Source of the DNA: a virus
Length of the DNA stretch: 32,059 bases
Reading direction: 5' to 3' (one strand)
Virus record (IMG/VR): IMGVR_UViG_3300027709_000045
Span: 1-32,059 of that record
Shown here: one piece after another, positions 6,541-30,631 of the stretch
Position numbering within the stretch: position 1 is the stretch's first letter
How the letters are laid out: every line of letters begins with the position of its first letter
Program-made: the position numbers and the translations under genes
The notes under the pieces: generated by a model
What the model saw: the letters and a program-made list of their open reading frames with translations, nothing else
The model's database searches: none
Told to the model about the DNA's origin: nothing

Positions 6541-8877
6541 TTAAATTACGCAAGTTTCACATTGGTCTTCATCTTTTGGGGAGTCTAATTCTACTTGTGG
6601 CTCGAATGAGTTAGGTGTGCTTTCTGATCTTACTTCTACTTCTTCTGGAGTATCTGTTACATCAACTTTTAAATCGTATGTGTTTTGATAATATGATGTT
6701 TTCCATCCTAGTTTATATGTCATTAGCATATCTTGTATCATTGTACTCATTGGCACTTCGTTATTATCAAAGTGTGTTGGATTGTAACTCCAGTTACCAC
6801 TAATAGCTTGATCAAAGAACTTCTGCATTACAGCAACAATGTTAATGTAACCTTCGTTGCTTGGCATATCCCATAACAAAGTATAGTGATTTCTTAATGC
6901 TTGATACTGCGGAACAATCTGCTTAAGAGGTCCTTTTTTGGATTTCTTAACAGACAAGTATCCGCGAGGTGGTTCGATTCCATTTGTTGCATTCGACACG
7001 ATGGAACTGCTTTCTGATGGCATCTGTGCAGACAATGTTGAGTGCCGTAGGCCATGTTCCTTAATATCTTTGCGTAAAGAATCCCAATCATATTTTAATG
7101 TAATATTGCAAATTTCATCAAGATCTTTTTTATAATGATCGATGGGCAATAGTCCTTGGGAATATTTGGTTCGACTAAAGTACTCACATTTACCCTTTTC
7201 AGCCGCAAGGTGACATGATGCAGATAAAAGATAATATTGGAATGCTTCTGTTAATTCGTGTACTTTTGTTAATGCTTTTTTATCGGAATATTTTACTTGA
7301 TTCTTTGCTAGATAATGTGCTAGGCCAATATACCCAACACCTAAAGATCTACGTGCTTTAGTGCTTAATTCAGCCGCTTTTACAGGATATCGTTGATAAT
7401 CTATAATTTCGTCTAAAGATCTAACAGCTAAATCACATAGGCTTTCTAGTTCTTCTAGTTGATTAATTTTGCCAACATTAATTGCTGAAAGAATACATAA
7501 TGCAATTTCACCTTCTTTATCATCAATATGTTGTAATGGTTTTGTAGGTAGTGTAATTTCTTGACATAAATTACTCATATAAACAGTATCTGTAAAAGAA
7601 CTATGTGTATTACAATGATCAACATTCATAATATAAATGCGACCTGTTTCTGCACGTTCTTTGATTAAAGACGTGAAAAGATCCATTGCAGGAATTTTAT
7701 GTTTTCTTAGTGATGTTTTTCTTTCATACTTTTCATAAAGTTCTTGGAATAAATCTTGGTCAGTAAAAAATGCTTCATATAAGTCTGGAACATCATGTGG
7801 TGAGAAAAGAGTAATTTCTTTATTCTGTAATAATCGCTCATACATTAGTTTATTAATTTGAATTGAATAATCTAATTTACGAACTCTATTATCCTCAGTT
7901 CCTTTGTTATTTTTTAATACTAAAATATCTTCAATTTCGTAATGCCAAATAGGGAAGTGCGTTGTAGCACTACCTCCTCGTACTCCATTTTGAGTACAGC
8001 ATCTTACAGTCGACTCGAATTTTTTGAGGAACGGAATTATGCCCGTGTGTGCAACTTCGCCTCCTCTTATTTTAGAATTAATTGCTCGTATTCTGCCTGC
8101 GTTAATTCCTATGCCGGCTCTTTGTGCAGTATATCTACCAATCGACATATCACTAGCGAAAATACTATCAAGGGTATCGTCACTATCAACAAGAACACAC
8201 GAAGCAAATTGCCTAACAGGGGTACGCACCCCGGCCATGACTGGCGTTGGGATATTGATTTTAAAAAGTGAGGTCGCATCATAATATCTCCTTACATAAG
8301 CTAAACGATTTCTTTCTGGATACTCAGCAAATAATGTTGCCGCAATCATCATGTACATCATTTGTGGAGACTCAAAAATTTCTCCACTACTTCTGTCTTG
8401 ACAAAGGTACTTGTCAACAATTTGTCTTAGTCCTGCGTAAGTAAAATTTTCATCTCGTTGATGTTTAATATATTTGTCTAGTGTTTTGATCTCATCAGCA
8501 GAATATTTTTCTAGTATGTTAGGATCGTAAACCCCACGTTCAATATTTTTATCAATCATTTCTTGTAATGTAATAGGTTTGAAATGACCAAATGCTTCTT
8601 TATAGATTGGATATAGTAAAAGTCTTGCCGCGGCGTATTGATAATTTGGTATATCTAGGGAAATTAAATCATTTGCTGACCTAATTAAAATTTCTTGAAT
8701 TTCTTGTGTACTCATGCCATCATAAAATTGAATGTTTGCGTTCATTTCAATCTGTGATGCACTTACATTTGCTAATCCCTCACAGGCTTCTTCTACTACA
8801 AAATGAATTTTATTAACGTTTAATGGAACTAATCGACCATTTCGTTTTTGAATCTGTATTCCTACGCCATTTGACAT
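6541..8877 (-). CDS. nrdA: Ribonucleotide reductase class I, alpha subunit
   Basis: The 778-residue large subunit reduces NDPs to dNDPs. It starts with an ATP-cone (IQKRNGRLVPLNVNKIHFVV, about 8-95), the allosteric activity site. The barrel follows, with FASCVLVDSDDTLDSIFA carrying the first redox Cys and MSNLCQEITLPTKP around the second. MPSESSSIVSNATNGIEPPR is the typical loop of NrdA, and the C-terminal tail ends CETCVI, a CxxC that passes electrons from glutaredoxin. All motifs expected for an active class Ia enzyme are present and uninterrupted. An AATAAATA box lies 54 nt upstream. Confidence 0.98.
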   Translation of the reverse strand: MSNGVGIQIQKRNGRLVPLNVNKIHFVVEEACEGLANVSASQIEMNANIQFYDGMSTQEIQEILIRSANDLISLDIPNYQYAAARLLLYPIYKEAFGHFKPITLQEMIDKNIERGVYDPNILEKYSADEIKTLDKYIKHQRDENFTYAGLRQIVDKYLCQDRSSGEIFESPQMMYMMIAATLFAEYPERNRLAYVRRYYDATSLFKINIPTPVMAGVRTPVRQFASCVLVDSDDTLDSIFASDMSIGRYTAQRAGIGINAGRIRAINSKIRGGEVAHTGIIPFLKKFESTVRCCTQNGVRGGSATTHFPIWHYEIEDILVLKNNKGTEDNRVRKLDYSIQINKLMYERLLQNKEITLFSPHDVPDLYEAFFTDQDLFQELYEKYERKTSLRKHKIPAMDLFTSLIKERAETGRIYIMNVDHCNTHSSFTDTVYMSNLCQEITLPTKPLQHIDDKEGEIALCILSAINVGKINQLEELESLCDLAVRSLDEIIDYQRYPVKAAELSTKARRSLGVGYIGLAHYLAKNQVKYSDKKALTKVHELTEAFQYYLLSASCHLAAEKGKCEYFSRTKYSQGLLPIDHYKKDLDEICNITLKYDWDSLRKDIKEHGLRHSTLSAQMPSESSSIVSNATNGIEPPRGYLSVKKSKKGPLKQIVPQYQALRNHYTLLWDMPSNEGYINIVAVMQKFFDQAISGNWSYNPTHFDNNEVPMSTMIQDMLMTYKLGWKTSYYQNTYDLKVDVTDTPEEVEVRSESTPNSFEPQVELDSPKDEDQCETCVI

Positions 8878-8930
8878 GAAACTGTAATCTCCCCTTGCAT
8901 AATATTCGTTTTAGTAGTTGAATGATATTG

Positions 8931-8938
8931 TATTTATT
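8931..8938 (-). promoter_or_regulatory. Late-type promoter box AATAAATA upstream of nrdA
   Basis: On the minus strand AATAAATA lies 54 nt before the nrdA start. Its placement before an early/middle-type gene is a reason for caution. Confidence 0.4.
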
Positions 8939-9359
8939 GTAACCGTGGCATCCTGTAAATTCGTTGTGGTACAATATGTGTGGGTATCTCGGTCTTTTGA
9001 GTAACCAACCTGTGGTTGTAACACAAAACATCAGACTCAACGTGCAAAGGGTATAATAATTCTTCATTCACTCTGTCTATACTGATATGTATCTCAAACT
9101 TACTATCTTTAAACCTGTCGGTTAACTGTAGCGTGTAACATGATCCTAGCGTTAACATTAGGTCACAATAGCGATCATTCTGTAATAGTTCCCAAGGGCC
9201 TGGCCAAATTGCTTTGTCCCAAGGGTTAGTGCTTAATTTACACCGTTTTTTGCTGTTGTAAAAATTAATTACTTCGTTGAAAGGGTTAGTACTTGTTTCA
9301 AGCCGTGCTCTAAGGCTTGACCATTTTTTTAATTTAGTTGCATAATTTTCTTTTAGCAC
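8934..9359 (-). CDS. Conserved marine-phage protein of unknown function (141 aa)
   Basis: The 141-residue protein has a basic N-terminus and a central NPWDKAIWPGPWELLQNDRY segment, Trp-rich, which I recall from conserved unknowns beside tail-fibre genes of T4-like marine phages. LTDRFKDSKFEIHISID suggests a beta-rich C-terminal half. It starts with GTG at 9357-9359, overlapping the tail-fibre stop (TAGTG), so it is translated after that gene and may help with fibre folding or attachment; this is inference from position. Confidence 0.7.
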   Translation of the reverse strand: MLKENYATKLKKWSSLRARLETSTNPFNEVINFYNSKKRCKLSTNPWDKAIWPGPWELLQNDRYCDLMLTLGSCYTLQLTDRFKDSKFEIHISIDRVNEELLYPLHVESDVLCYNHRLVTQKTEIPTHIVPQRIYRMPRLQ

Positions 9360-10987
9360 TAGGACTTATAGTTCACCTTAAATAACAAATTCGCTGTATC
9401 ACTAGTTGTAGTGTTTATCATTTCAACGATTATAGTATCAACTATAGTGTTACCATCTTCGTCTGTTAAAGAAGCTCTAAATTGAAGGTTAGTTTCATAT
9501 AATGAACTACCCAAATAACTATGTTCATCAGTTAATGTAGCTGTGCCTAAAGATCTGTTAACTAGAATTTCAAGTGTTCCTTGTCTTACAGCATCAACGG
9601 CTGTTGATCTATAAATGTAGTCGATTCGAACAGTTCTATCTGTATCTCCAGGAGCTCTTAATACTCTAATATATGAATTTTGTTGTACAACATTAATACT
9701 ATAAGAATGTTCCATATCATAAATTGCTGGACCTTCAACTTCTGGAACATAAACTGTACCACTTATTAATGCTTGATTAAATGTTAACTCAGCTGATCTA
9801 TCAAAATAATCACTAGTTGAAACGTTACTTAATGCTGTTCCAAATGAATACTTAATACATGAATACGTTGCATTGGCTTCAACACCACCGTCATTACCTA
9901 CACCATGAAATATATTATGAGAGCTAGTATTAAAGTTTCCTATGTGAATCCAAATGCCTTGTCTGTCAATAGCTTGGAATTTACAATTCGTAATATAATT
10001 ATTAATAGGTCCTGTTAACATTCCAGCATTGTTTATTACTGTACCGTCGCCAAACACAAAGCCATAACCTGATACTTCAAATACACATTTGTCCCATAGA
10101 TTATTTTCTATATCATATTTAGATTCAACAGCTCTTGTAAATCCTGTAACCTGTACATTTCTAAAAGTATTTCTAATTGTATTAACAGCCGTACTTAAAC
10201 AAGCCATTCTAATTCCAATTTGATCAACAAGGTGTGCTGAACCACTTGTCCAGATACCTTCAATAATTAAATCTTCAAAAGTACTTTCACGACAACTTTG
10301 TAATAATACTCCGCAATGAGTTGAAGTATGCTTTAAAGTTAATCCTTTAAGTACAATATGCCTAGCTTGATTTAAAGTTGTGCTTGTAGCATCTAATGCC
10401 GGACTTCCGGGAGTACTTGCACTATTAACAGTTTCAATAATTGGAGCATTTGCTGTTTGTGTAATAACAACTTTGTCACTACCAGCACCAACAATAGTTG
10501 CGTGTGGAGGAACTTTTAAACTTGCTGACAAAGTATATTCACCAGCTGGTATTCTTAAAGTAACTCTACTAGCTGTACTTCCTTTTGTAGCAGTATTAAT
10601 ATAAAGTTGATCAATTGCTTGTTGAAGCTGTGTTGTTTGGTCTACGCCATCGCCTAATGCACCAAAACTTCTAACACTAACTACTTCGTCTAATCTATCT
10701 TGTAATGTTCTAGTAACAGGCGTTGTAGGTGTAACACCGGTCTGCATTGTAGCATCGTCTTTTGCGTATGTATATTGATCAGCAAAAGAGAATAAGTTAT
10801 CGTGTTGTGTTAATATTTTACTATTACCAACTGCTGGCGATCCTTCAGATACAGAACCATTACCTATGTAAAGTTCGCGAGTATCTACTGCCCAACCTAG
10901 TTCTCCGCCTGCTAATTGCGGAATTCCAGATCCTACGAGCTTCTGTCCTCGTCTAATTTGTATCCTAGAAATTTGTACAATTGCCAC
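9359..10987 (-). CDS. Tail fibre or tailspike with beta-helix (542 aa)
   Basis: The N-terminus (ISRIQIRRGQKLVGSGIPQL, then AGGELGWAVDTRELYIGNG) is the attachment module common to many marine phage fibre proteins. From about 95 (VVSVRSFGALGDGVDQTTQL) the sequence enters the pectate-lyase-3/beta-helix fold typical of tailspikes, with regularly spaced turns (for example ESTFEDLIIEGIWTSG and HNIFHGVGNDGG). The C-terminal 120 residues look like a separate beta domain. It probably binds or trims host surface polysaccharide. A CATAAATA box and AAGGAG precede the ATG at 10987. Confidence 0.88.
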   Translation of the reverse strand: MAIVQISRIQIRRGQKLVGSGIPQLAGGELGWAVDTRELYIGNGSVSEGSPAVGNSKILTQHDNLFSFADQYTYAKDDATMQTGVTPTTPVTRTLQDRLDEVVSVRSFGALGDGVDQTTQLQQAIDQLYINTATKGSTASRVTLRIPAGEYTLSASLKVPPHATIVGAGSDKVVITQTANAPIIETVNSASTPGSPALDATSTTLNQARHIVLKGLTLKHTSTHCGVLLQSCRESTFEDLIIEGIWTSGSAHLVDQIGIRMACLSTAVNTIRNTFRNVQVTGFTRAVESKYDIENNLWDKCVFEVSGYGFVFGDGTVINNAGMLTGPINNYITNCKFQAIDRQGIWIHIGNFNTSSHNIFHGVGNDGGVEANATYSCIKYSFGTALSNVSTSDYFDRSAELTFNQALISGTVYVPEVEGPAIYDMEHSYSINVVQQNSYIRVLRAPGDTDRTVRIDYIYRSTAVDAVRQGTLEILVNRSLGTATLTDEHSYLGSSLYETNLQFRASLTDEDGNTIVDTIIVEMINTTTSDTANLLFKVNYKS

Positions 10988-11008
10988 GTTTCAACTCCTT
11001 GTTTTATA

Positions 11009-11016
11009 TATTTATG
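11009..11016 (-). promoter_or_regulatory. Late promoter box CATAAATA of the tail fibre gene
   Basis: On the minus strand CATAAATATATAAAAC lies 21 nt before the tail-fibre ATG, with AAGGAG in between. It overlaps the end of the exonuclease gene. Confidence 0.6.
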
Positions 11017-11686
11017 CGAAACGGTCATAGTACTGGTACACCCTATCCCACCATTTAGCTTCCCAATCGGCAAAAGTGTCAGGATAAATGTCAAATTGTT
11101 GATATGTAAGGTCTCTACAACACATAAAAATATGGCCTTCTTTAATAGTAGTTCCGAAAATTTCATTATGTGCTAGAGCATAGGCTACTAACTGCATTTT
11201 ATAGTCATCAACCCATTCTTCTTTTTTAGGCTTGTTTGATTGCTTAAAGTCCATGATGCAATTTTGCCCTTTAAAGACGCCTACGAGGTCTGTAGTGCCT
11301 GCATATATCTTAGGATGGTATAATGACACTTCACTACCCCATATTTCACTTACAAACGTTAGTGCTTCTTCTTTTACTACTTTAGCCATATCATTAGCTT
11401 GTTGACTAAAAGGATTTGATCCAGCGGCTGGCCAATCACCTGTATCTATATAATCTTCTAGAAACTTGTGCATACGTGTACCAACACTTGCGGCCTCAGT
11501 TACAATTTCTTGTGCTTTCTGTTCACCAACTCTTTTACGCCATAAGTTAAGTTGGGTTTTATCTTTTGTTCTATCTAAGATTGTTGTAACACTAGCTACA
11601 GCATTACCGTCAGGACAAGAGTATAAACGTCTACCATCTACTGACTCCTTTTTAAGTGTTTTATAATCAAATTTTTGAGTAATCAA
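11012..11686 (-). CDS. PD-(D/E)XK exonuclease (Cas4/RecB/MGME1-like, about 224 aa)
   Basis: The nuclease core is visible: VGTRMHKFLEDYIDTGDW (helix with the conserved His), AGTTDLVGVF (first acidic residue), then CIMDFKQSNKPKKEEW, the D-x-K of the PD-(D/E)XK site, and QLVAYALAHNE, the Q-x3-Y motif of RecB-like exonucleases. Such enzymes degrade single-stranded or flap DNA during replication and recombination. The open frame extends up to 11782, but the best start is TTG at 11684-11686, which has GGAG 7 nt upstream; that overlaps the preceding oxygenase by 20 nt. It is the last gene of the haem operon. Confidence 0.85.
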   Translation of the reverse strand: MITQKFDYKTLKKESVDGRRLYSCPDGNAVASVTTILDRTKDKTQLNLWRKRVGEQKAQEIVTEAASVGTRMHKFLEDYIDTGDWPAAGSNPFSQQANDMAKVVKEEALTFVSEIWGSEVSLYHPKIYAGTTDLVGVFKGQNCIMDFKQSNKPKKEEWVDDYKMQLVAYALAHNEIFGTTIKEGHIFMCCRDLTYQQFDIYPDTFADWEAKWWDRVYQYYDRFA

Positions 11687-12293
11687 TTGTCGGCTCCATT
11701 GTAATATATTCAAACTTAAAGTTAACCACAAAGCACCTTCTTGGTGCTTTACAAGGGTATGTTCCATGAAATACGTTTCCATCCATTATAATAACTTTTC
11801 CTGGATAAGGATTAAAATGTAAACATATTTGGTTACCATCAGAATGAGGCATCAGCGTATAGGTACAACCATCTGTTGGTTGTACTTTTTGTTCATCTGT
11901 TATTGCATCAAAAAATATTATCATACTAATTAGACTAGGTTGTTGTGTATGATTATGTACTGCTTGATAGCCCCCATCTTTATATTCAATTGCCCATGCT
12001 TCATGAGGCGTTATGCTAATACCATAATTTAGATGTTGTTTTAGTTTTTTGTCTACCCAACTTGTTGGAACTAATTGGGATTTTGGATCAATGCTATATT
12101 GTACACGATCAGGAAACTCAGTCCTTTGGAAAGCATTAGCAAACACACCTATAGGCAATTCAGGGTGTTCAGTTTCTAAAACAAATTGATTAGTATTTGT
12201 AATGTAGAAATTATCTCCAGTAAAGTTTTCAGCTTTACTGTTCTCAAGAAAGTCTACCCATTCTATAGGATTTTTAATTGATTCATCTATCAT
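11667..12293 (-). CDS. 2OG-Fe(II) oxygenase-like protein, copy 4 (208 aa)
   Basis: The second half has the double-stranded beta-helix pattern of 2-oxoglutarate/Fe(II) oxygenases: YQAVHNHTQQPSLISMIIFF with an HxH metal-binding pair, then GKVIIMDGNVFHGTYP with the distal His, then RRCFVVNFKFE with an Arg suited to bind 2-oxoglutarate. These enzymes hydroxylate proteins, nucleic acids or small molecules; the substrate is unknown. The next gene upstream (12290-12904) is a clear paralogue, sharing the MDGxVFHGxYPxxxxRR block. ATGA overlap with that gene shows coupling. Confidence 0.78.
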   Translation of the reverse strand: MIDESIKNPIEWVDFLENSKAENFTGDNFYITNTNQFVLETEHPELPIGVFANAFQRTEFPDRVQYSIDPKSQLVPTSWVDKKLKQHLNYGISITPHEAWAIEYKDGGYQAVHNHTQQPSLISMIIFFDAITDEQKVQPTDGCTYTLMPHSDGNQICLHFNPYPGKVIIMDGNVFHGTYPCKAPRRCFVVNFKFEYITMEPTIDYSKI

Positions 12294-12904
12294 ACCTTTT
12301 CCTCCGGATCTAGCCAGTCAAAGTTTATATCAATTACAACTGTTCGTCTTGATCCTGTTACAGGATATACTCCGTGAAATACTTTACCATCCATTATAAC
12401 ACATTTGCCAGGCTCTGGTATATGATTTTTGAGTACTTGCGTACCATCAGGACAAGGCATTATTGAATAAAGCATACCATGAGTTGCTTGTGGCGTTTCT
12501 TCAATTGGTGGTTGTCCATCAAGGTGAATAACAACTGTAAGTTCTTGTGGGCCATGACAATGTAAGTGTTGGTATCCACCTTCATGATAGTCAACACACC
12601 AGGACATATTTACTTTACAATTTTTAATTGGTATTTTTTGTTCACGGCATTTATCTTCTGTCCATTTAGCAATTTTGCTAAAGTCTTTTTTCATTCGCTT
12701 TGATACATCCCATTGATGTCCTTTGAATGTAGTTTTATGATCGCTTTCGTCAAGACCCTTTTCTGTTTCTGTAAATAGATATTCAAACTCATCAAAGAAT
12801 GGACAGTATGTTTCAATTATAAATTGATTCATAGATGTAGTCATAAGGTCAGTAGCTGGAGTAGTTGTTACTACATTTGTATTAAATGCTTTAGGTAATG
12901 TCAT
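12290..12904 (-). CDS. 2OG-Fe(II) oxygenase-like protein, copy 3 (204 aa)
   Basis: Shares with copy 4 an N-terminal NQFIIETYCPFF-like segment, a metal motif YQHLHCHGPQELTVVIHLDG and the block GKCVIMDGKVFHGVYPVTGS followed by RR. This gives the HxH, distal His and Arg of a 2-oxoglutarate/Fe(II) oxygenase. Substrate unknown. It starts in an ATGA overlap with the stop of hemC, so it is translated with the haem genes. The pair probably arose by tandem duplication after entering the phage lineage. Confidence 0.78.
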   Translation of the reverse strand: MTLPKAFNTNVVTTTPATDLMTTSMNQFIIETYCPFFDEFEYLFTETEKGLDESDHKTTFKGHQWDVSKRMKKDFSKIAKWTEDKCREQKIPIKNCKVNMSWCVDYHEGGYQHLHCHGPQELTVVIHLDGQPPIEETPQATHGMLYSIMPCPDGTQVLKNHIPEPGKCVIMDGKVFHGVYPVTGSRRTVVIDINFDWLDPEEKV

Positions 12905-13731
12905 TGTAATATTTCCATTAATTTATCAGCCATAGCATAGCCCCAATCTTCTGGTCTGTTATAGACTCCTTTTCTTATTTTAACTATGCCTGTATGTTTA
13001 CCTTCTAAAAACATTTCAGCTATAAGTAGATTGTTCTGTACATTTCCTGCTAGTGCAGTATGACAGTCTCCACTTATCCTTTCTAACAATGCTCGTTCAA
13101 CTTGTGAATCAAAGTATGTTGGATAATGATTCATGCGTGAAATTAATTCATTTGTTTTAGTATCGTCTGTTCTAGTTTGTAATGCAATAATTCCTTGACA
13201 TACCGCAGGTACATTGTTTATTACTACTTGGTTTACGTCAATATTTAATAAATCTAGTCCTGCACCAGCTAGAACTATGGCATCATAATCTCCATTTTGT
13301 AACTTGGCTAATCTAGTTTCAATGTTACCTCTAATATCTTTTGTTTGCACCCACTCAAACATATTTTCTATTTGAGCTTTACGTCTTGGTGAACTAGTAC
13401 CAACAGTTGGAGATGCTTTACTAGTAATGTCACCTATCATATAATCTTTACAATTATTTCTTGGTAATACAACATTTACTGTTAAGCCTTCTGTTTTAAC
13501 ACCTGGCATATCTTTATAGCTATGAATAGCTACATCAATTTTTCCATCTAGTAATTCTTTTTCAATAGTGCTACAAAATACAGCCTTGCCACCCATTTCA
13601 GCTATAGGTGTTTTTTGATCTTTGTCACCTTCTGTATGTATAATACTTTGTTCCCATACTTTGCCATACTTTGCTTGGGCTAACGTCGCCTGGGCTAATG
13701 ATAATGAACTGCCTCTACATCCTACTTTCAT
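12901..13731 (-). CDS. hemC: Porphobilinogen deaminase (hydroxymethylbilane synthase)
   Basis: Joins four porphobilinogens into hydroxymethylbilane. Visible motifs are KVGCRGSSLSLAQA at the start; DVAIHSYKDMP with catalytic Asp66; VGTSSPRRKAQ and RGNIETRLAKL, the substrate-binding Arg segments; and SGDCHTALAG with Cys223, the attachment site of the dipyrromethane cofactor. Length is 276 residues against about 310 for bacterial enzymes, with the shortening mainly in the C-terminal domain. All catalytic residues I can place are kept, so it is probably active. It starts after GGAAG and 1 nt after the hemF stop. No HemD follows, although hemC and hemD are often adjacent in bacteria. Confidence 0.96.
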   Translation of the reverse strand: MKVGCRGSSLSLAQATLAQAKYGKVWEQSIIHTEGDKDQKTPIAEMGGKAVFCSTIEKELLDGKIDVAIHSYKDMPGVKTEGLTVNVVLPRNNCKDYMIGDITSKASPTVGTSSPRRKAQIENMFEWVQTKDIRGNIETRLAKLQNGDYDAIVLAGAGLDLLNIDVNQVVINNVPAVCQGIIALQTRTDDTKTNELISRMNHYPTYFDSQVERALLERISGDCHTALAGNVQNNLLIAEMFLEGKHTGIVKIRKGVYNRPEDWGYAMADKLMEILQ

Positions 13732-13732
13732 A

Positions 13733-14548
13733 TTACTTCCATTTCACCTCAGGTGGTAATGACATTAATATAGCATCCATATTACCTCCAGTTTTTAAAC
13801 CAAATTTAGTTCCTCTGTCATACATTAAATTAAATTCAGCATACCTGCCTCGTTTTATTAACTGGGTTTCTTTATCTGCTTTTGTATAATCTTTTCTACA
13901 GTTTAGTAAAACAGTATCAGTCATAATTAATAAAAATTGTTTGCCTACATCTTTTATAAAATCAAAGCTCATATGTTCAGGATCATTGTATTCAAAAAAT
14001 AGTCCACCAATCCCTCTTGTTTCTTTTCTATGTGGCAAATAAAAATATTCATCACAGGCTTTAGAAAACTTATCGTAGTATGCTGGATCATACAAATCAC
14101 ATACATCTTTACATTTAGAATGATACCAATGTTTATAAGCATCATCTTGTATACAAGGTGTTACGTCAAAGCCTCCTCCGTACCATGTTTTTCCAGTTTG
14201 AATCATTCTTGTATTAAAATGCATAGCTGGAACCATAGGGTTTTTAAAATGCAATACTACTGATATACCAGTTGCTTTATACTTACGGCTTTCTTCTGTG
14301 CCTGGTATTTCTTTTGCAAATTCTTTATTAAATTCTCCTGTAACATATGAAAAGTTTACTGTACCTTTTTCAAATATATTTCCATACATTACTCTGTGTT
14401 CTTGATGCCACCCTTCACGTGTTGTTTTATTAGGTGATATCATTTTTTTTCCAGGATAAAAACTTGAATCATTTTCTAACTCTTCGATTTTATCACATAG
14501 TTGTTGTTGTAGTTCTCTAAACCATAAATTCGCTGAAGTTATATTCAT
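13733..14548 (-). CDS. hemF: Oxygen-dependent coproporphyrinogen III oxidase
   Basis: Converts coproporphyrinogen III to protoporphyrinogen IX using O2. The HemF signature block is intact: NTRMIQTGKTWYGGGFDVTP, then YHSKCKDVCDLYDPAYYDKF, then LPHRKETRGIGGLFFEY, then the C-terminal RGTKFGLKTGG and LMSLPPEVKW. GWHQEHRVMYGNIFEKG and AMHFNTR supply the expected His residues. Length 271, slightly short of the usual 290-300. The start overlaps the hemE stop (TAATG), with GAGAGG upstream. Choice of the aerobic enzyme rather than radical-SAM HemN fits an oxygenated surface ocean. Confidence 0.97.
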   Translation of the reverse strand: MNITSANLWFRELQQQLCDKIEELENDSSFYPGKKMISPNKTTREGWHQEHRVMYGNIFEKGTVNFSYVTGEFNKEFAKEIPGTEESRKYKATGISVVLHFKNPMVPAMHFNTRMIQTGKTWYGGGFDVTPCIQDDAYKHWYHSKCKDVCDLYDPAYYDKFSKACDEYFYLPHRKETRGIGGLFFEYNDPEHMSFDFIKDVGKQFLLIMTDTVLLNCRKDYTKADKETQLIKRGRYAEFNLMYDRGTKFGLKTGGNMDAILMSLPPEVKWK

Positions 14549-15447
14549 TATGCAAACCTCTCTCGTATTGTATCTATAAAAGTGTGTACGTTATATTCTG
14601 GTGTTGTCTTATTAATGCCGTGCCCTAATCCACATATCCAACCTGTTCTATTAACTTCTTGTAGTTGGTCGCAATACATATTAAGTTGCATAACAAGTTT
14701 ATTTGGCGGCAGTAATAATAGTTGTTCATCAAAATTACCTTGTACAAAGCCTCTATCCGCTTCATTTAGCAACGTTTGTAAATTTTGTGTACTATCTATA
14801 CCTACACCGGCCCAATGGTAATGTTTAACTGCATTAACATCTTGTCCTTTGCAATAATATCCTACGTCTTTGTTTACTAATGGCTCTAAGAGTTTAACAT
14901 AAGCTGACCAATTGTTTACAGTTGCTACTCCACTATCAAAGATCATTACTTTCTCTGCACCTGCTTTTAATTGTAAATCTATATTTGCTTTTAATAAAGG
15001 AATTAATGTTAGAAGATCAACATCACCATACTGTTTAATAGTATGCGGTCCGCCAACAAAGCCAATTAAACTTACATTGTTAGGTAACATTTCTCTTGTT
15101 ATCTTTAATGCGTCTGCTTGAAACTCCATATGTTCAATGGCGGCATCTATATCTCCGTGTGTACTCCCTTCTAATTGTGGACCTGGGTTATATCTTAAGT
15201 CCATACCTAAACCCTCTAATGGAAATAAAATATCTGAAAACAAAATAGCAACATCTAAATTAAACTCTTTTACTGGCCCACACGCCACTTCGGCGGCAAG
15301 CTCTGGCTCTTTACATAACTGTTCGAATGTATATTTTTCTTTTAGCTTTTGATAATGACTATGGTATCTTCCTGCTTGACGCATAAACCATATTGGAGGA
15401 GTTGCTTGAGCAATTCGTCCACACGCATTATTAAATAGTTCATTCAT
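14548..15447 (-). CDS. hemE: Uroporphyrinogen III decarboxylase
   Basis: Removes four carboxyl groups from uroporphyrinogen III to give coproporphyrinogen III, which commits the pathway to haem rather than B12 or sirohaem. PPIWFMRQAGRYHSHYQ holds the two substrate-binding Arg; ILFSDILFPLEGLGMDL holds the catalytic Asp; WICGLGHGINKTTPEYNV near the end holds the conserved His. The ATG at 15445-15447 is chosen over an upstream in-frame start because it places the MRQAGRY motif about 20 residues in, as in bacterial HemE, and overlaps the Nfu stop. That gives 299 residues, shorter than the usual 340-350. Confidence 0.96.
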   Translation of the reverse strand: MNELFNNACGRIAQATPPIWFMRQAGRYHSHYQKLKEKYTFEQLCKEPELAAEVACGPVKEFNLDVAILFSDILFPLEGLGMDLRYNPGPQLEGSTHGDIDAAIEHMEFQADALKITREMLPNNVSLIGFVGGPHTIKQYGDVDLLTLIPLLKANIDLQLKAGAEKVMIFDSGVATVNNWSAYVKLLEPLVNKDVGYYCKGQDVNAVKHYHWAGVGIDSTQNLQTLLNEADRGFVQGNFDEQLLLLPPNKLVMQLNMYCDQLQEVNRTGWICGLGHGINKTTPEYNVHTFIDTIRERFA

Positions 15448-15811
15448 CTTTTGGTGGTTTTTGCCATAAGTCATAATCATAAGACATATAAGGATCTACT
15501 TGTGAATTAATATCTTCTTCACCATGCACTACTTTTACTTCTGGAATGTAATGCATAAGTGTACGTTCAACACCCATCTTTAAAGTTTGTGTTGACATAG
15601 CACATCCAGAACAAGCACCTGACATAAAGATAGTTGCAATTCCGTTAGCATGATCCCATTCTTTTAAACTTATTGATCCGCCGTGTTGGGCAACACTTGG
15701 TTGTAGTTTTTCTTCTATAATAGTTGCTATTGCAACTTCAATTTCTGCCGCAGTTTTTTCTTTATCTGCTGTACTGTCTGTTGAGTCTACTGTTTTATCT
15801 AGGTCCGTCAT
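15440..15811 (-). CDS. Nfu/NifU C-terminal-type Fe-S cluster scaffold (123 aa)
   Basis: After a Thr/Asp/Lys-rich head of about 22 residues comes a complete Nfu domain: IEEKLQPSVAQHGGSISL, then GACSGCAMSTQTLKMGVERT with Cys67-x2-Cys70, which binds a 4Fe-4S cluster at a dimer interface. Nfu proteins carry Fe-S clusters to target enzymes. Placed between oxygenase genes and hemE in overlapping frames, it suggests attention to iron cofactors during infection, or delivery to an Fe-S client elsewhere. None of HemC, HemE or HemF needs an Fe-S cluster, so its client is not in this operon. Confidence 0.93.
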   Translation of the reverse strand: MTDLDKTVDSTDSTADKEKTAAEIEVAIATIIEEKLQPSVAQHGGSISLKEWDHANGIATIFMSGACSGCAMSTQTLKMGVERTLMHYIPEVKVVHGEEDINSQVDPYMSYDYDLWQKPPKDE

Positions 15812-16533
15812 AGGTTCATGTTTCCTTCTAATTGTGGGCGTGGGGGTTCAGGATGTTCTATTTGGCTCTCGCGAAAGCTACCCAATTCCTCATCGCCATA
15901 TGTTGTTGTTTCTATTTCTTTTGGTATTGATGATGTTACAGCTATAAAGTTAATTGTAAAGACTATTCTATTTTCACTTACATTAGCATTAGGTTGTGTT
16001 TTATGTGTTATCCATCCAGGAAATAAAACTACATCATTTTGTTCTACAGTTACTTCTTGCCAGTAATCGTGTATTGTTTCACGATCGACTCCAAGAACTG
16101 CTCCAGATATTCTAGAATAAGATGTCCATCTATCTCTTAGCAATCTTTCAAATAAAATATTGCCTCCAAGCTCAGGTTGTTTAACATAAATTGATGCAAC
16201 AACTGAGGTGCCGCCGTGTTCGTGTGGTTTGGTCCAACTTCCGTGTGTATGTTTGTTAGCCCAACTCATTGAAACATAAACATGATCATATAAGATATCC
16301 CAATCTTCTAAACAAACTTTTACTTTAGGTTGCAACCAATCTAAGAAAGGTACTAACGAAGGCCAATTATGTGGATCGCCACCTCCACCTGCTGTAGTAA
16401 TACCGCCGTCTGCTTCTGAAACTCCTTGTTTAGAACCATACTTAAAAATATGATCTTCAAAGGATTTAATATCAAAACCTGGCTCGTAATTATATTTTGT
16501 AATTATGTCTGGAGTTGTTTTAATTGTTTTCAT
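15808..16533 (-). CDS. 2OG-Fe(II) oxygenase (TIGR02466-like), copy 2 (241 aa)
   Basis: Residues 10-30 (IITKYNYEPGFDIKSFEDHI) match its upstream paralogue. The metal site is THGSWTKPHEHGGTSVVASI with an HxH pair; DVVLFPGWITHKTQPNANVS holds the distal His, and RIVFTINFIAV the 2-oxoglutarate-binding Arg. This is the pattern of the phage-common family with PxWLxHxVxPN. A C-terminal extension of about 40 Glu/Pro-rich residues is absent from the paralogue. Substrate unknown. ATGA overlap couples it to the Nfu gene below. Confidence 0.82.
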   Translation of the reverse strand: MKTIKTTPDIITKYNYEPGFDIKSFEDHIFKYGSKQGVSEADGGITTAGGGGDPHNWPSLVPFLDWLQPKVKVCLEDWDILYDHVYVSMSWANKHTHGSWTKPHEHGGTSVVASIYVKQPELGGNILFERLLRDRWTSYSRISGAVLGVDRETIHDYWQEVTVEQNDVVLFPGWITHKTQPNANVSENRIVFTINFIAVTSSIPKEIETTTYGDEELGSFRESQIEHPEPPRPQLEGNMNL

Positions 16534-17105
16534 TGTGCAAAATAATTTAGTGTAAACACTAACCTTTCATCGTCTGATTTACTTGGTTGAGCTCTGTGCG
16601 ACATCCAACCAGGGAATATAAGCACATCATTAGTTTTTATAGGTACTTCGCTATAGTAGTCGTGCATATTTCCTGGAACATCTCTTCGCATATACGACAT
16701 CCATTCACGACGCATAAAGTTTTCAAATTCAACGTTGCCACCATTTTCAGGTTGTTTAATATATGTTGAAACTACTAAATGAGTTGAACCATGATCGTGT
16801 GTTCTAGTTGAGCCACCTTTTGGATGAGTGTTAACCCAACTTTTAGTAACAAAGTATTGAGACCAATTTACTTGCCATTCGTTTAATGCTATCTCTATTT
16901 TTGGCTGTAACCAAGTTAAGTAAGGAACCAAACTAGGCCAATCGTGGGGGTTTTCGCCTCTGCCAGCAGTAGTTAAGCCGCCATTGGCTTCGTAATTGCC
17001 TTGGATTCCTGTCCTATCCAAACATTCTTTGAAAGGTTTTAAATCAAATCCTGGCTCATAATTGTACTTCCACATTAGAGTGGGAAGGAATTTATACTCG
17101 CTCAT
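16530..17105 (-). CDS. 2OG-Fe(II) oxygenase (TIGR02466-like), copy 1, first gene of the haem operon (191 aa)
   Basis: Paralogue of the next gene: KYNYEPGFDLKPF near the start, EANGGLTTAGRGENPHDWPS, metal motif TRTHDHGSTHLVVSTYIKQP, distal His in DVLIFPGWMSHRAQPSKSDD, and Arg in RLVFTLNYF. It is the first gene after a near-consensus sigma70 promoter whose predicted start of transcription falls on, or within a nucleotide of, the ATG at 17103-17105. No Shine-Dalgarno sequence is seen, so the mRNA may be leaderless. Alignment with the paralogue supports this ATG rather than the Met at residue 11. Substrate unknown. Confidence 0.82.
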   Translation of the reverse strand: MSEYKFLPTLMWKYNYEPGFDLKPFKECLDRTGIQGNYEANGGLTTAGRGENPHDWPSLVPYLTWLQPKIEIALNEWQVNWSQYFVTKSWVNTHPKGGSTRTHDHGSTHLVVSTYIKQPENGGNVEFENFMRREWMSYMRRDVPGNMHDYYSEVPIKTNDVLIFPGWMSHRAQPSKSDDERLVFTLNYFAQ

Positions 17106-17112
17106 AGCATAT

Positions 17113-17141
17113 AGTATATAACAGTTTTTTGCTTATGTCAA
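17113..17141 (-). promoter_or_regulatory. Strong sigma70-type promoter of the haem operon
   Basis: On the minus strand TTGACA (17136-17141) and TATACT (17113-17118) are 17 nt apart. The predicted start is about 17106, next to the first ATG. It is host-type and presumably early, unlike the late boxes before virion genes. Confidence 0.88.
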
Positions 17142-25113: not shown

Positions 25114-25187
25114 GCGGGGTTCGTATAGTGGTAATACCTCAGCCTTCCAAGCTGATGCTGTCGGTTCGATTCCGACACTCCGCTCCA
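25114..25187 (+). tRNA. tRNA-Gly (anticodon TCC)
   Basis: GCGGGGT pairs with ACTCCGC. The anticodon stem TCAGC/GCTGA holds loop CTTCCAA, so the anticodon is TCC. T-arm GTCGGTTCGATTCCGAC; CCA is encoded. Confidence 0.95.
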
Positions 25188-25190
25188 TTT

Positions 25191-25265
25191 AGGGGAGAAG
25201 TGTTAATGGTTGCACGTCAGATTCCAAACCTGAAAGACAGGGTTCGATTCCTTGCTCTTCTGCCA
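25191..25265 (+). tRNA. tRNA-Trp (anticodon CCA)
   Basis: AGGGGAG pairs with CTCTTCT with two G-T wobbles. The anticodon loop TTCCAAA gives CCA. The top pair of the anticodon stem next to the loop is an A-C mismatch. CCA end encoded. It starts 3 nt after tRNA-Gly. Confidence 0.85.
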
Positions 25266-25340
25266 GGTTCCAGTGACAGAGTGGTTATGTAGAGGACTGC
25301 AAATCCTTGTACGGTGGTTCGATTCCGCCCTGGAACTCCA
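25266..25340 (+). tRNA. tRNA-Cys (anticodon GCA)
   Basis: GGTTCCA pairs with TGGAACT (one G-T wobble). Anticodon loop CTGCAAA gives GCA. T-arm GGTGGTTCGATTCCGCC; CCA encoded. It starts directly after the CCA of tRNA-Trp, with no spacer. Confidence 0.93.
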
Positions 25341-26288: not shown

Positions 26289-27128
26289 ATGTTTAGTGCA
26301 AAACTTAAAACAAAAATTAAAGACTTACCTTTTCACGATCAGGCTTTACTCTTTGCAGAGTTAAGCAGGGTTGCTTATTTTACTGAATATCACGCAACAC
26401 GATTAGCAAAGAAGTTAGGCTTCACTACAGTAGAATATTATAATATTAATGGTGCAGAAGCATATCGCTTTATGAATAAGCACGATATGGTTTTTGCTTG
26501 TCGTGGAACTCAACCTAAACAATTTAATGATATTAAAGCAGATGCTAGGTCATGGCCGATTGTATCTGAAACTGTAGGGCGAGTACATAGTGGCTTTAAG
26601 GGCGAAGTTGACAAGCTATGGGATAAGATTAAAGAAGATATTGTTAGAGAACAAAAGACACGACATCTTTATTTTATTGGACATTCGTTAGGAGCGGCAA
26701 TGGCAACAATAATTGCAAGCCGTTGTAATGGTGATCAAATAATTAAATCTCCAGTTGCCCTGCATACATTTGGATCACCGAGAGTAGGTTGGCCAAGTTA
26801 TATTAATAACTTTCCAATGATACACTATCGTTGGGTTAATAATTCAGATATAGTAACTAGAGTACCTTTTTATTTTATGGGTTATAGACATCACGGAGTA
26901 TGTATGTACTTTAATCACTGGGGTAACTTACGAAATATTGATGGATGGCAACGAACTAAAGATGTATGGCGTGGGATCATTAAGGGCATACAAAACTTAA
27001 AGTTTGATTCTGTTTCTGATCATAATCCTAAAGAATATATTAAGCATATAAAGAAGTTAAGAGATGGCGAAGAAACTCACCAGCCGACCTTTGTTGATAA
27101 TTATGCGAGTATGTATGACCGTTATTAA
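26289..27128 (+). CDS. Class 3 lipase-family alpha/beta hydrolase (279 aa)
   Basis: Lipase_3 hallmarks are present. FACRGTQPKQFNDIKADA is the oxyanion region (the usual FRGT). YFIGHSLGAAMATIIASR holds nucleophile Ser133, followed by LHTFGSPRVGWPSY. VNNSDIVTRVPF holds the likely catalytic Asp187, and GYRHHGVCMYF the likely His (201 or 202). No signal peptide is visible, so it acts inside the cell or relies on lysis or virion delivery. It could attack host membrane lipids late in infection, in line with its late promoter. AMG-like and rarely annotated in phages. Confidence 0.88.
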   Translation: MFSAKLKTKIKDLPFHDQALLFAELSRVAYFTEYHATRLAKKLGFTTVEYYNINGAEAYRFMNKHDMVFACRGTQPKQFNDIKADARSWPIVSETVGRVHSGFKGEVDKLWDKIKEDIVREQKTRHLYFIGHSLGAAMATIIASRCNGDQIIKSPVALHTFGSPRVGWPSYINNFPMIHYRWVNNSDIVTRVPFYFMGYRHHGVCMYFNHWGNLRNIDGWQRTKDVWRGIIKGIQNLKFDSVSDHNPKEYIKHIKKLRDGEETHQPTFVDNYASMYDRY

Positions 27129-27281: not shown

Positions 27282-28268
27282 TTAATGTAAATTGTTTGGT
27301 ATTATTACATAATGGATTGTTAAGACAATACCAACTGATACAATTAATCCTAACATCATTTTTAAGAAGTCTCTTCCAATTATTGGAAACACATACTTAA
27401 ACTTATAGTTTTCCATAAGTGTTGAGATAGCAAGTTCACGTCCACATAACAATCCAACAAAGACCCAAGTAGTACTCATTGGTATATCATTATACTCTCT
27501 AAAGAACATTAATATAAATGCATAGACTAGATTAATTAATGTTGCTGAACGTACATATCTAGTACCTGTCTTTTCTAAAACAATATGTTGAATCTTTCCT
27601 CCACGCTCATAAAATGTATATCCTAAGAATACTATAAACACAACAGATATAAAAAGCATCCATTCAACGGACAATGCTCTAGGAAGGAATACAGCAATAT
27701 TGGCCATGTCGTGTGATAACCAAGTGTACCATAAGAATGCTGTAGTGGCCCAACTACCAACACGCCAATAAATTTTATGTGTTTCAGGAACCTTATCTGC
27801 TTTCTCATCTATGACACGTTCAACTATCAACCATATGGAGTAAGCCACGATTGCCGCCAACGCATAGCCTATAATAGATTTGACTAACATCTTTTCTAAT
27901 ACAAATGTACTAGCAAATGCAGACAGGACTAAGAAACTTGTTGAAACTGGTACGCCAACTCGTGTTAATAATAAAAGTACAAGTGGAGCAGTAGCATGAT
28001 ACCATCGGACTTCTTGGAATGGTATTTGATTTAAGCGTCCAAAGGATATATCTCCTCCATTAACATACCAGCCATACCATAATGTAAACAGTAAGACTGC
28101 CGTTGCTGATAACCAAAGTGTTCGCCAATGAAACCCTGGCTCAGTATTATCTGGGTGGTCTGAGTTACAAGCTATCCACGGCCCAAGGGTTTGTACACTA
28201 TCATTAGCTACAACAGAGTAAGCCGCAAGGATAAATCCCACGCACATATAGAGTAAAGTAAGATCCAT
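27282..28268 (-). CDS. PiT-family-like phosphate permease (328 aa)
   Basis: Integral membrane protein with about nine hydrophobic spans. Near the N-terminus VVANDSVQTLGPWIACN matches the (A)ND signature of PiT/PHO4 inorganic phosphate transporters, and LTRVGVPVSTSFLVLSAFAS matches their second conserved segment. It is shorter than cellular PiT proteins (usually 400 or more), and I do not see a clear second ND repeat, so a reduced or diverged transporter is possible. Marine phages often carry phosphate-related genes because phosphate limits phage DNA synthesis. It has its own sigma70-type promoter. Confidence 0.72.
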   Translation of the reverse strand: MDLTLLYMCVGFILAAYSVVANDSVQTLGPWIACNSDHPDNTEPGFHWRTLWLSATAVLLFTLWYGWYVNGGDISFGRLNQIPFQEVRWYHATAPLVLLLLTRVGVPVSTSFLVLSAFASTFVLEKMLVKSIIGYALAAIVAYSIWLIVERVIDEKADKVPETHKIYWRVGSWATTAFLWYTWLSHDMANIAVFLPRALSVEWMLFISVVFIVFLGYTFYERGGKIQHIVLEKTGTRYVRSATLINLVYAFILMFFREYNDIPMSTTWVFVGLLCGRELAISTLMENYKFKYVFPIIGRDFLKMMLGLIVSVGIVLTIHYVIIPNNLH

Positions 28269-28832: not shown

Positions 28833-29075
28833 ATGTTTAAGAAAATGTTTAAAAATATCGGTAAATTTTTAGACTCGTTGACTGAATTCGACAGAAAGAT
28901 GGCTGAAGAAGGCTATATTATACATTACCCACCCCCAGGTGCTGGATCTATGGGAGGTTGTTTTGTTACTTACATAGGCAAACCACCAAAAAAACATTCT
29001 AATAAAACTACGCACATAAATAAGAGTAGACATGATAAACCTGGTACCATTTCAGGAGACGATCCAAGAGCTTAA
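28833..29075 (+). CDS. Small protein overlapping the hemA start (80 aa)
   Basis: [20 protein letters not shown] at the N-terminus is an amphipathic basic helix that could lie on a membrane; [20 protein letters not shown] is a Gly/Pro-rich middle; the tail is polar. It overlaps the start of hemA by 44 nt in another frame and would couple translation of the two. Little Shine-Dalgarno sequence is seen. Function unknown. Confidence 0.6.
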
Positions 29076-30225
29076 AGATAACGGTAACTACCGCGTCTTT
29101 AACGATATCCTTCGCACTTGCGGAGAGTATCCCAACGCTATTTGGTATGGCAAATATAATATAAAAAATATTGTCAATTGGTGCTCCAATGATTATCTCG
29201 GAATGGGACAGCATCCAGTTGTCTTAGACTCTATGCGTACTGCACTCGACCAAGTTGGTGCTGGAGCAGGAGGAACTCGCAATATTGCGGGAACAACTCA
29301 TTATCATGTTGCTTTAGAGCACGAGTTAGCTTCTCTGCATAGCAAGGAGTCTGCTCTGCTCTATACATCGGCTTATGTTGCAAATGAATGGACATTAATT
29401 GCTCTTAAACGAATTATTCCCGACATTGAGTTCGTAAGTGATTCTAAAAATCACGCTTCCTTAATACAAGGAATACGACACAGTGGTGCTAAGAAACATA
29501 TTTTTCAGCACAATGATCTGGAGCAATTAGAAAACGTACTGAAAACTGTCGAAGGCACACCTTGTGTGGTTTTCGAATCCGTGTATAGCATGGATGGATA
29601 CACTAGTAAGTTAAATGATATCGTTGACCTAGCCGAAAAGTATAATGCCATAACGTATCTTGATGAAGTCCACGCCGTTGGCCTGTATGGTGAAACAGGT
29701 GCTGGTTGGTCAGCAAAGCAAGGATCACAGGATAGAATTGATATACTAAATGGCACGTTAGGTAAAGCCTTTGGTGTACAGGGCGGATACATAGTAGGAC
29801 ACAATGATGTCATTGATGCTATTCGTTCTATTGCTTCAGGCTTTATTTTTACAACCGCATTATCACCTGTAGTTTGTGCTGGCGCTTTAGCTAGTATTAA
29901 ATATCTTAGGGCGAATAATGAATTACGTATTAAACATCAAGAAAGAGCACAACGACTAAAAACATTGTTAACTGAAGCAGGTTTAAACATTATGGAAAAT
30001 GAAACTCATATTGTTCCAGTACTAATTGGCGATGCTAAAAAGACTAAACAATTGAGTGACGATTTAATAAACGATTACGGAATTTATTGTCAAGCAATTA
30101 ACTATCCTACTGTTGCAGTAGGTACTGAACGTTTACGTTTTGCTCCGACTCCATATCATACTGATGCAATGATGCATAATTTAGTTGACGCTCTTAAAAC
30201 TATAGGTGAGAACTATGAATATTAA
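29032..30225 (+). CDS. hemA: 5-aminolevulinate synthase (ALAS)
   Basis: The 397 residues are a full-length ALAS, the PLP enzyme that condenses glycine and succinyl-CoA to 5-aminolevulinate, first step of the Shemin pathway used by alphaproteobacteria. [20 protein letters not shown] is the usual N-terminus. [33 protein letters not shown] and [12 protein letters not shown] (Asp211, PLP) follow. [18 protein letters not shown] holds Lys245, the Schiff-base lysine, and [13 protein letters not shown] is ALAS-type. TLGKAFGxxGGYI and IFTTALSP separate it from the relatives KBL and BioF, which have TLGKALG-type sites. The start ATG at 29032 gives the standard N-terminus. Shemin-type phage genes have been reported from aquatic sources (from memory). 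Confidence 0.95.
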
Positions 30226-30631
30226 AAAATATCTTTATCAAGCATTAGGTCTTCTTTGTGTAGGAATGGCATACATAGGATTTGTTGTTCCTGGAATACC
30301 ATTTTCTATATTTTTAGTAATCGCCGCTTGGGCATTTGCTAAAAGCTCTCCAAAAATGGAGGCGTGGTTATATAATCATCCATGGTTCGGTGAATTCTTA
30401 ACTAATTGGAATCATCATAGAGTTTTCCCAACCAAAGCTAAGATAGGAATGATAATTGTAATGGCATCAACATTAGCTGTTACATTTCATATAACTCATA
30501 ATATGAATATGCTTTTATGGACAGGAGCCTTTATGGCTGGCGTGGCTATATGGGCATGGCGTTACCCACCAACGAAAGCTGAACACGATCTTAGAATCAA
30601 AGAAGGTCGAAGGGTTGCATGGTTGAAGTAG
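30215..30631 (+). CDS. DUF454 (YbaN-like) inner-membrane protein
   Basis: The family pattern is clear: [20 protein letters not shown], then [20 protein letters not shown], then [16 protein letters not shown], then [15 protein letters not shown] and a last span with AIWAWRYP. About three to four membrane spans. The function of DUF454 is not known to me; members are sometimes found near haem-related genes. The ATG at 30215 after AGGTGAG is preferred over an in-frame GTG at 30206; it overlaps the hemA stop by 11 nt, so the two genes are coupled and probably serve the same task. Confidence 0.9.

Follow-up and report, generated by a model that had tools for sequence, protein, structure and literature searches.

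The window analysed here, the IMG/VR virus record IMGVR_UViG_3300027709_000045 (32,059 bases), contains nine open reading frames on the minus strand that run from 17105 to 11012 in the order oxyA, oxyB, nfu, hemE, hemF, hemC, oxyC, oxyD and an exonuclease gene. Judging from the sequence, the block nfu-hemE-hemF-hemC is probably a functional, virus-adapted cassette for tetrapyrrole synthesis, inserted into a resident oxygenase operon, which would raise flux together with a 5-aminolevulinate synthase (AlaS) encoded by the same phage. The operon and the alaS locus comprise the following features.

17113..17141, minus strand: predicted sigma70-type promoter, TTGACA-N17-TATACT (11/12, top score of the region); the oxyA ATG starts 7 nucleotides (nt) downstream.
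16530..17105, minus strand: oxyA, 2-oxoglutarate (2OG)-Fe(II) oxygenase, resident phage gene and tandem copy of oxyB (PF13759, 2OG-FeII_Oxy_5, 52.6 bits; PHROG 81, 2.7e-25).
15808..16533, minus strand: oxyB, 2OG-Fe(II) oxygenase, resident phage gene (PF13759, 39.1 bits).
15440..15811, minus strand: nfu, NifU-like iron-sulfur (Fe-S) carrier domain with a CxxC motif, CSGC (PF01106, 74.8 bits, 5.9e-21).
14548..15447, minus strand: hemE, uroporphyrinogen decarboxylase, 299 amino acids (aa) (PF01208, URO-D, 181.8 bits, 2.4e-53).
13733..14548, minus strand: hemF, oxygen-dependent coproporphyrinogen III oxidase, 271 aa (PF01218, Coprogen_oxidas, 276.7 bits, 1.9e-82).
12901..13731, minus strand: hemC, porphobilinogen deaminase, 276 aa, with a short third domain (PF01379, Porphobil_deam, 193.5 bits, 4e-57).
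12290..12904, minus strand: oxyC, 2OG-oxygenase-like, resident phage gene (PHROG 81, 2.8e-9; homologue collinear in L341).
11667..12293, minus strand: oxyD, 2OG-oxygenase-like, resident phage gene (PHROG 81, 1.3e-9; homologue collinear in L341).
11012..11686, minus strand: PD-(D/E)XK exonuclease, ninth gene, outside the haem module (PHROG 298, 9.5e-55).
29032..30225, plus strand: alaS, 5-aminolevulinate synthase, entry enzyme of the Shemin pathway (TIGR01821, 573 bits; cut-off 338.6).
30206..30631, plus strand: gene for a DUF454 (YbaN-like) membrane protein, with its start inside the 3' end of alaS (PF04304, 104 bits).

The spacing from oxyA through oxyD is -4, -4, -8, -1, +1, -4 and -4 nt, and the initial annotation of nine overlapping or abutting genes behind a strong sigma70 promoter is borne out, with all nine reading frames confirmed. 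The hemE start, placed there at 15480, has been moved to 15447, the position shared by all relatives, which gives the 8-nt overlap with nfu; the exonuclease start, a TTG at 11686, was set by the 224-aa homologue (74%) in L341, a stretch of a sister contig described below. The promoter is kept 5' of the homologous oxygenase in the sister (TTGACT-N17-TATACT), with similar sites in other kin. Since the -10 box lies only 7 nt from the oxyA ATG, the first message may be near-leaderless; the cassette is presumably expressed. Both oxyC (20.9 bits) and oxyD (21.1 bits) fall under the PF13759 cut-off of 27, with PHROG 81 matches of about 1e-9.

Regarding the enzymes themselves, family matches and intact active sites uphold the earlier view of a genuine phage haem-biosynthesis module. 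HemE exceeds the PF01208 cut-off (181.8 vs 23.9 bits), retains Arg37, Arg41, Asp86, Tyr164 and His339 in the alignment, and has a predicted structure that matches solved URO-D enzymes with a template modelling (TM) score of 0.83 (Foldseek); among the viral sequences, Asp86 and His339 are present in 92/92 and Tyr164 in 89/92. HemF lies above the Pfam and NCBIfam cut-offs (NF003727, 309.1 vs 297), has PDB relatives down to 1.3e-54 and keeps its signature residues in all 32 of the 32 viral sequences. HemC likewise passes the Pfam and equivalog cut-offs (TIGR00212, 224.6 vs 164), its predicted structure matches solved porphobilinogen deaminases at TM 0.86-0.89, and Asp84, the cofactor-binding Cys242 and five Arg residues are conserved in 120/120 viral sequences. 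Members of the main viral HemC clade (L079, L081, L085, L090 and others) have only about 245-250 aa, with the third domain reduced and the cofactor Cys present. The median ratio of non-synonymous to synonymous substitution rates (dN/dS) over viral pairs is 0.12 for hemE, 0.16 for hemC and 0.065 for hemF, showing purifying selection. In Nfu the CSGC motif is present and PF01106 is exceeded (74.8 vs 27 bits), while the cut-off of the full-length NfuA equivalog is not reached.

The window thus encodes steps 1, 3, 5 and 6 of the pathway (AlaS, HemC, HemE, HemF), and as far as the 32 kb show, steps 2, 4, 7 and 8 fall to the host. The three hem genes had been described as encoding successive haem enzymes with intact motifs; the motifs are intact and the catalytic residues are kept, but HemD acts between HemC and HemE. 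In AlaS, the pyridoxal phosphate-binding lysine is present, the Lys of NGTLGKAFG aligning with that of Rhodobacter capsulatus AlaS (2bwn), and in the same alignment the haem-feedback residue His342 of the R. capsulatus enzyme is Lys; the C-terminal tail is without Cys. Other phage AlaS proteins have likewise been reported to lack the haem-feedback residues (PMC11480375). The alaS gene at 29032-30225 had no place in the finding of the initial annotation, where a bilin destination was likewise not considered. The pair alaS-DUF454 is found again in many viral contigs.

The best reading of these genes is that the module lifts flux beyond the steps that the host controls. Phage AlaS, free of the feedback residues, would supply extra 5-aminolevulinate, and phage HemC would provide hydroxymethylbilane, the ring being closed by host HemD. 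HemE would then pull uroporphyrinogen III off the branch to sirohaem and B12, and HemF would yield protoporphyrinogen IX, from which host HemJ and HemH would complete haem. Host enzymes would therefore be needed for HemB, HemD, HemJ and HemH: neither HemB nor HemD was found in the 32,059-base window, which does not hold the combination of HemB, HemD, HemJ or HemG, and HemH that would make the pathway complete on one contig.

Several observations weigh against this interpretation. HemE scores under the NCBIfam hemE equivalog cut-off (TIGR01464, 181.3 vs 302.95 bits), is about 40 aa shorter than that model and shows a loss of some 12 residues following Tyr164, and the third domain of the window HemC is shortened. 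No SAR11-type HemD, HemH or HemJ was found in 208 viral loci, the absence of HemD being less certain because this protein is divergent and PF02602 missed the SAR11 controls too. Hydroxymethylbilane that outpaced closure by host HemD would end as the useless isomer I; further pathway genes may lie beyond the 32-kb fragment; and the host has been assigned by similarity alone. The shortening of HemE and HemC and the low equivalog score of HemE could also be taken to mean that the block is non-functional or repurposed, through decaying genes or porphyrin enzymes that serve as binding proteins, but this is very unlikely given catalytic residues kept in up to 120 sequences, dN/dS well below 1 and matching folds.

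The history of the cassette is seen best in the sister contig IMGVR_UViG_3300026200_000139 (G405; stretches L341, L330, L342 and L423; 37.7 kb), most of which is collinear with the window, with identities of 92% for nrdA, 78% for a tail-spike-like protein and 85% for AlaS. One oxygenase gene of the sister (11436-12080), which matches both oxyA and oxyB (62% to oxyB), overlaps the oxyC homologue (12064) directly, and nfu, hemE, hemF and hemC are absent from this place. Because the sister oxygenases abut without a hem block, the oxygenases belong to the resident gene set of the phage, and the hem genes are movable parts. The initial annotation had seen pairs of oxygenases framing a designed haem unit; the empty site does not support this, and the oxygenases were rejected as members of such a unit. 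All four flanking oxygenases of the window match the family of 2OG-Fe(II) oxygenases known from marine T4-like phages (PHROG 81), and here they form the resident frame of the insertion site. No hemE or hemC was found in the sister contig, the relative closest to the window in its backbone, which carries a lone hemF (51%) between nrdB and a glutaredoxin gene (L330, 6311-9079); a single genome plan thus takes up hem genes at more than one site. An exact junction search of IMG/VR returned no second copy.

The position of nfu differs among the relatives. In IMGVR_UViG_3300028197_000029 (L015), which also encodes AlaS, the order nfu-oxygenase-hemE-hemF-hemC-exonuclease stands at the equivalent place, and nfu adjoins an oxygenase also in L011-L013, as it does in L015, with the hem genes located elsewhere in several such relatives. 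This makes nfu likelier a gene of the lineage than a part of the haem unit, and Nfu may serve Fe-S proteins without necessarily being a member of the module; nfu is, however, not present in the 37.7-kb sister, where hemE, hemF and hemC are missing from the same place.

Phylogenetic trees that include SAR11 and other bacteria place the viral HemE, HemC and HemF proteins in virus-only clades, one for each enzyme (support 98, 95 and 100/100, respectively; the HemE and HemC trees are quick trees without bootstrap). The viral HemE clade groups with SAR11 HemE, the nearest among the bacteria sampled, and the HemE-like protein of L092 (29% identity) falls outside it. Viral HemC is separate from the SAR11 HemC branch (29% identity), which rules out the SAR11 host as the source of HemC. 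The SAR11 chromosomal locus (L163) is similar in having the same three activities near each other, but its order, hemC-hemE-hemH-hemF-hemJ, is different, it includes hemH and hemJ, and its HemC is a divergent protein of 502 aa in contrast to the stand-alone, common-type HemC of the phage. Given the different order and a viral HemC that is not of the SAR11 type, the cassette was not taken whole from SAR11, and HemC at least has another origin. The SAR11 HemC (L163, 1484-2992) has about 270 extra C-terminal residues past the Pfam domain with no HEM4 match and is possibly a HemC-HemD fusion. HemF is present in 92/100 Pelagibacterales genomes.

It had been suggested that the region might prove to be a host fragment misjoined to phage sequence; this possibility, like that of host DNA captured passively and recently, is extremely improbable. 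The identities of HemE (51-53%) and HemF (44-50%) to SAR11 proteins would speak for it, but the virus-only clades, the branch position of HemC, the SAR11 gene order, the overlaps of 1-8 nt with phage genes, the collinear empty site of the sister and the occurrence of the order E-F-C in 18 other viral contigs all stand against it. The nrdB of the window is closest to that of cyanomyoviruses and collinear kin are present in IMG/VR; by sequence similarity, the phage is probably a marine, T4-like phage infecting SAR11.

Regarding distribution, at least 168 distinct viral contigs, the window included, have one or more of hemB, hemC, hemE and hemF in the fetched loci, several of these being near-identical strains, so that the independent events are fewer. 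The gene orders are EFC (19 contigs), CE (15), FCEB (12), EC (11), FBC (8), FCE (4) and FC (3), and hemC, hemE and hemF occur together on 36 contigs. Alignment searches of IMG/VR gave 136 loci for HemC (80 kept) and 57 for HemF, and single-protein searches of IMG/VR with HemC and HemF gave no matches. HemC is found in at least 136 viral stretches; AlaS is found in at least 473, and 15 of 33 viral records, window and sister included, encode it. Matches in the phage collection (26-40% identity) were not counted because the records resemble pieces of host genomes (Salmonella, Acinetobacter and similar), and the HemE-like proteins of L092 and L334-L336 (28-30% identity) were excluded as another URO-D-type protein.

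Some of these contigs link the hem genes to haem degradation. Haem oxygenase (HemO, encoded by hemO) was detected in 18 of the 39 viral records searched, and a bilin reductase lies within about 1 kb of it in 10 of 11 fetched stretches, the eleventh ending at a contig edge; in many phages alaS is found directly 5' of the bilin reductase gene. Fourteen contigs with hemB, hemC, hemE or hemF also encode hemO and/or bilin reductase, including one of 107 kb (L068/L338) that has a run of hemF-hemC-hemE-hemB (L338, 7980-11509), alaS 8 kb away, hemO and bilin reductase. The contig with HemE and HemC closest to those of the window (61% and 57%), a 96-kb viral contig (L002), carries at 8705-11807 contiguous genes for HemO, ferredoxin-dependent bilin reductase, HemE and HemC; the next gene is Asp/Asn hydroxylase-like. 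In the HemE of L002, Gln replaces the active-site Tyr.

The haem produced could have either of two destinations. It could go to host cytochromes and sustain energy generation through a long infection, a reading to which somewhat less than an even chance is given. SAR11 is an obligate aerobe, which counts in its favour, as do the cytochrome b561 gene adjoining the SAR11 hem locus and an AlaS without feedback residues; against it, the window has no recognisable cytochrome, ccm or ferrochelatase gene, and several relatives encode haem-degrading enzymes. The same idea has been proposed for phage AlaS (PMC11480375). More doubtfully, the product might be a bilin instead of cytochrome haem: the unsequenced part of the genome could encode a phage haem oxygenase and a bilin reductase of the ferredoxin-dependent type, to which the cassette would pass its haem. 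This suggestion draws on the gene cluster of L002, the 14 contigs that combine hem and bilin genes, the position of alaS upstream of bilin reductase, and the activity of published phage HemO and bilin reductase (PMC11480375). Against it, the window is without hemO and bilin reductase, hemO was not found in the window, the sister or G014 (45 kb), all of which are fragments, and the larger contigs G032, G055, G056 and G057 (79-116 kb) have hem genes but no hemO. A broader proposal, offered tentatively, is that T4-like marine phages assembled, gene by gene, a near-complete pathway of their own that starts with glycine and succinyl-CoA and passes by way of haem to bilin (AlaS, HemB, HemC, HemE, HemF, HemO, bilin reductase), the host being needed only to close the ring and to carry out the two final steps to haem; the window would then be one state of this modular pathway, and its end product a pigment and not cytochrome haem.

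The remaining genes of interest are all outside the operon. A ribosomal protein L7/L12 gene is present at 2017-2397 on the plus strand, scoring just below the cut-off (TIGR00855, 83.1 vs 84.4 bits); ribosomal proteins carried by phages are already known. Three tRNA genes, Gly-TCC, Trp-CCA and Cys-GCA, lie at 25114-25340 (plus strand). A class 3 lipase gene (26289-27128, plus strand) and a gene for a 328-aa protein (27282-28268, minus strand; 92% in the sister, with only a weak phosphate-transporter-like match) are each found again close to alaS in numerous viral contigs.

Parts of this pathway are already published for phages, namely AlaS, HemC and a coproporphyrinogen oxidase. In pelagiphage-like contigs, cassettes of AlaS, hemO and pcyA/X were described in 2024 (PMC11480375); those cassettes resemble the window in the kind of phage, the pathway and an AlaS without haem-feedback residues, but they combine the entry enzyme with two haem-to-bilin enzymes, whereas the window has a mid-pathway operon. 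The text of that paper makes no mention of hemB, hemC or hemF, and uroporphyrinogen decarboxylase does not appear there as a phage gene. For the T4-like SAR11 phage Pelagimyophage PMP-MAVG-4, coproporphyrinogen oxidase, porphobilinogen deaminase and guanosine monophosphate (GMP) reductase are mentioned in one sentence (PMC7029224, 2020), and a GMP-reductase-like gene is also present in L010, which has hemC-hemE; unlike here, no hemE, nfu operon, AlaS or cassette anatomy was described. No description of phage HemE, HemB or an E-F-C cassette was found in the papers covered, subscription papers and preprints being outside the search.

The co-occurrence of phage haem oxygenase and bilin reductase has been termed enigmatic (PMC11480375). 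The mid-pathway enzymes that had been missing are encoded by phages too: at least 168 viral contigs have genes for them, the gene order varies, and on one contig they directly adjoin hemO and bilin reductase. What these phages make from haem is now directly testable. This distribution suggests that tetrapyrrole flux has been under strong and recurrent selection in these phages, whose hosts are probably very abundant bacteria of the ocean.

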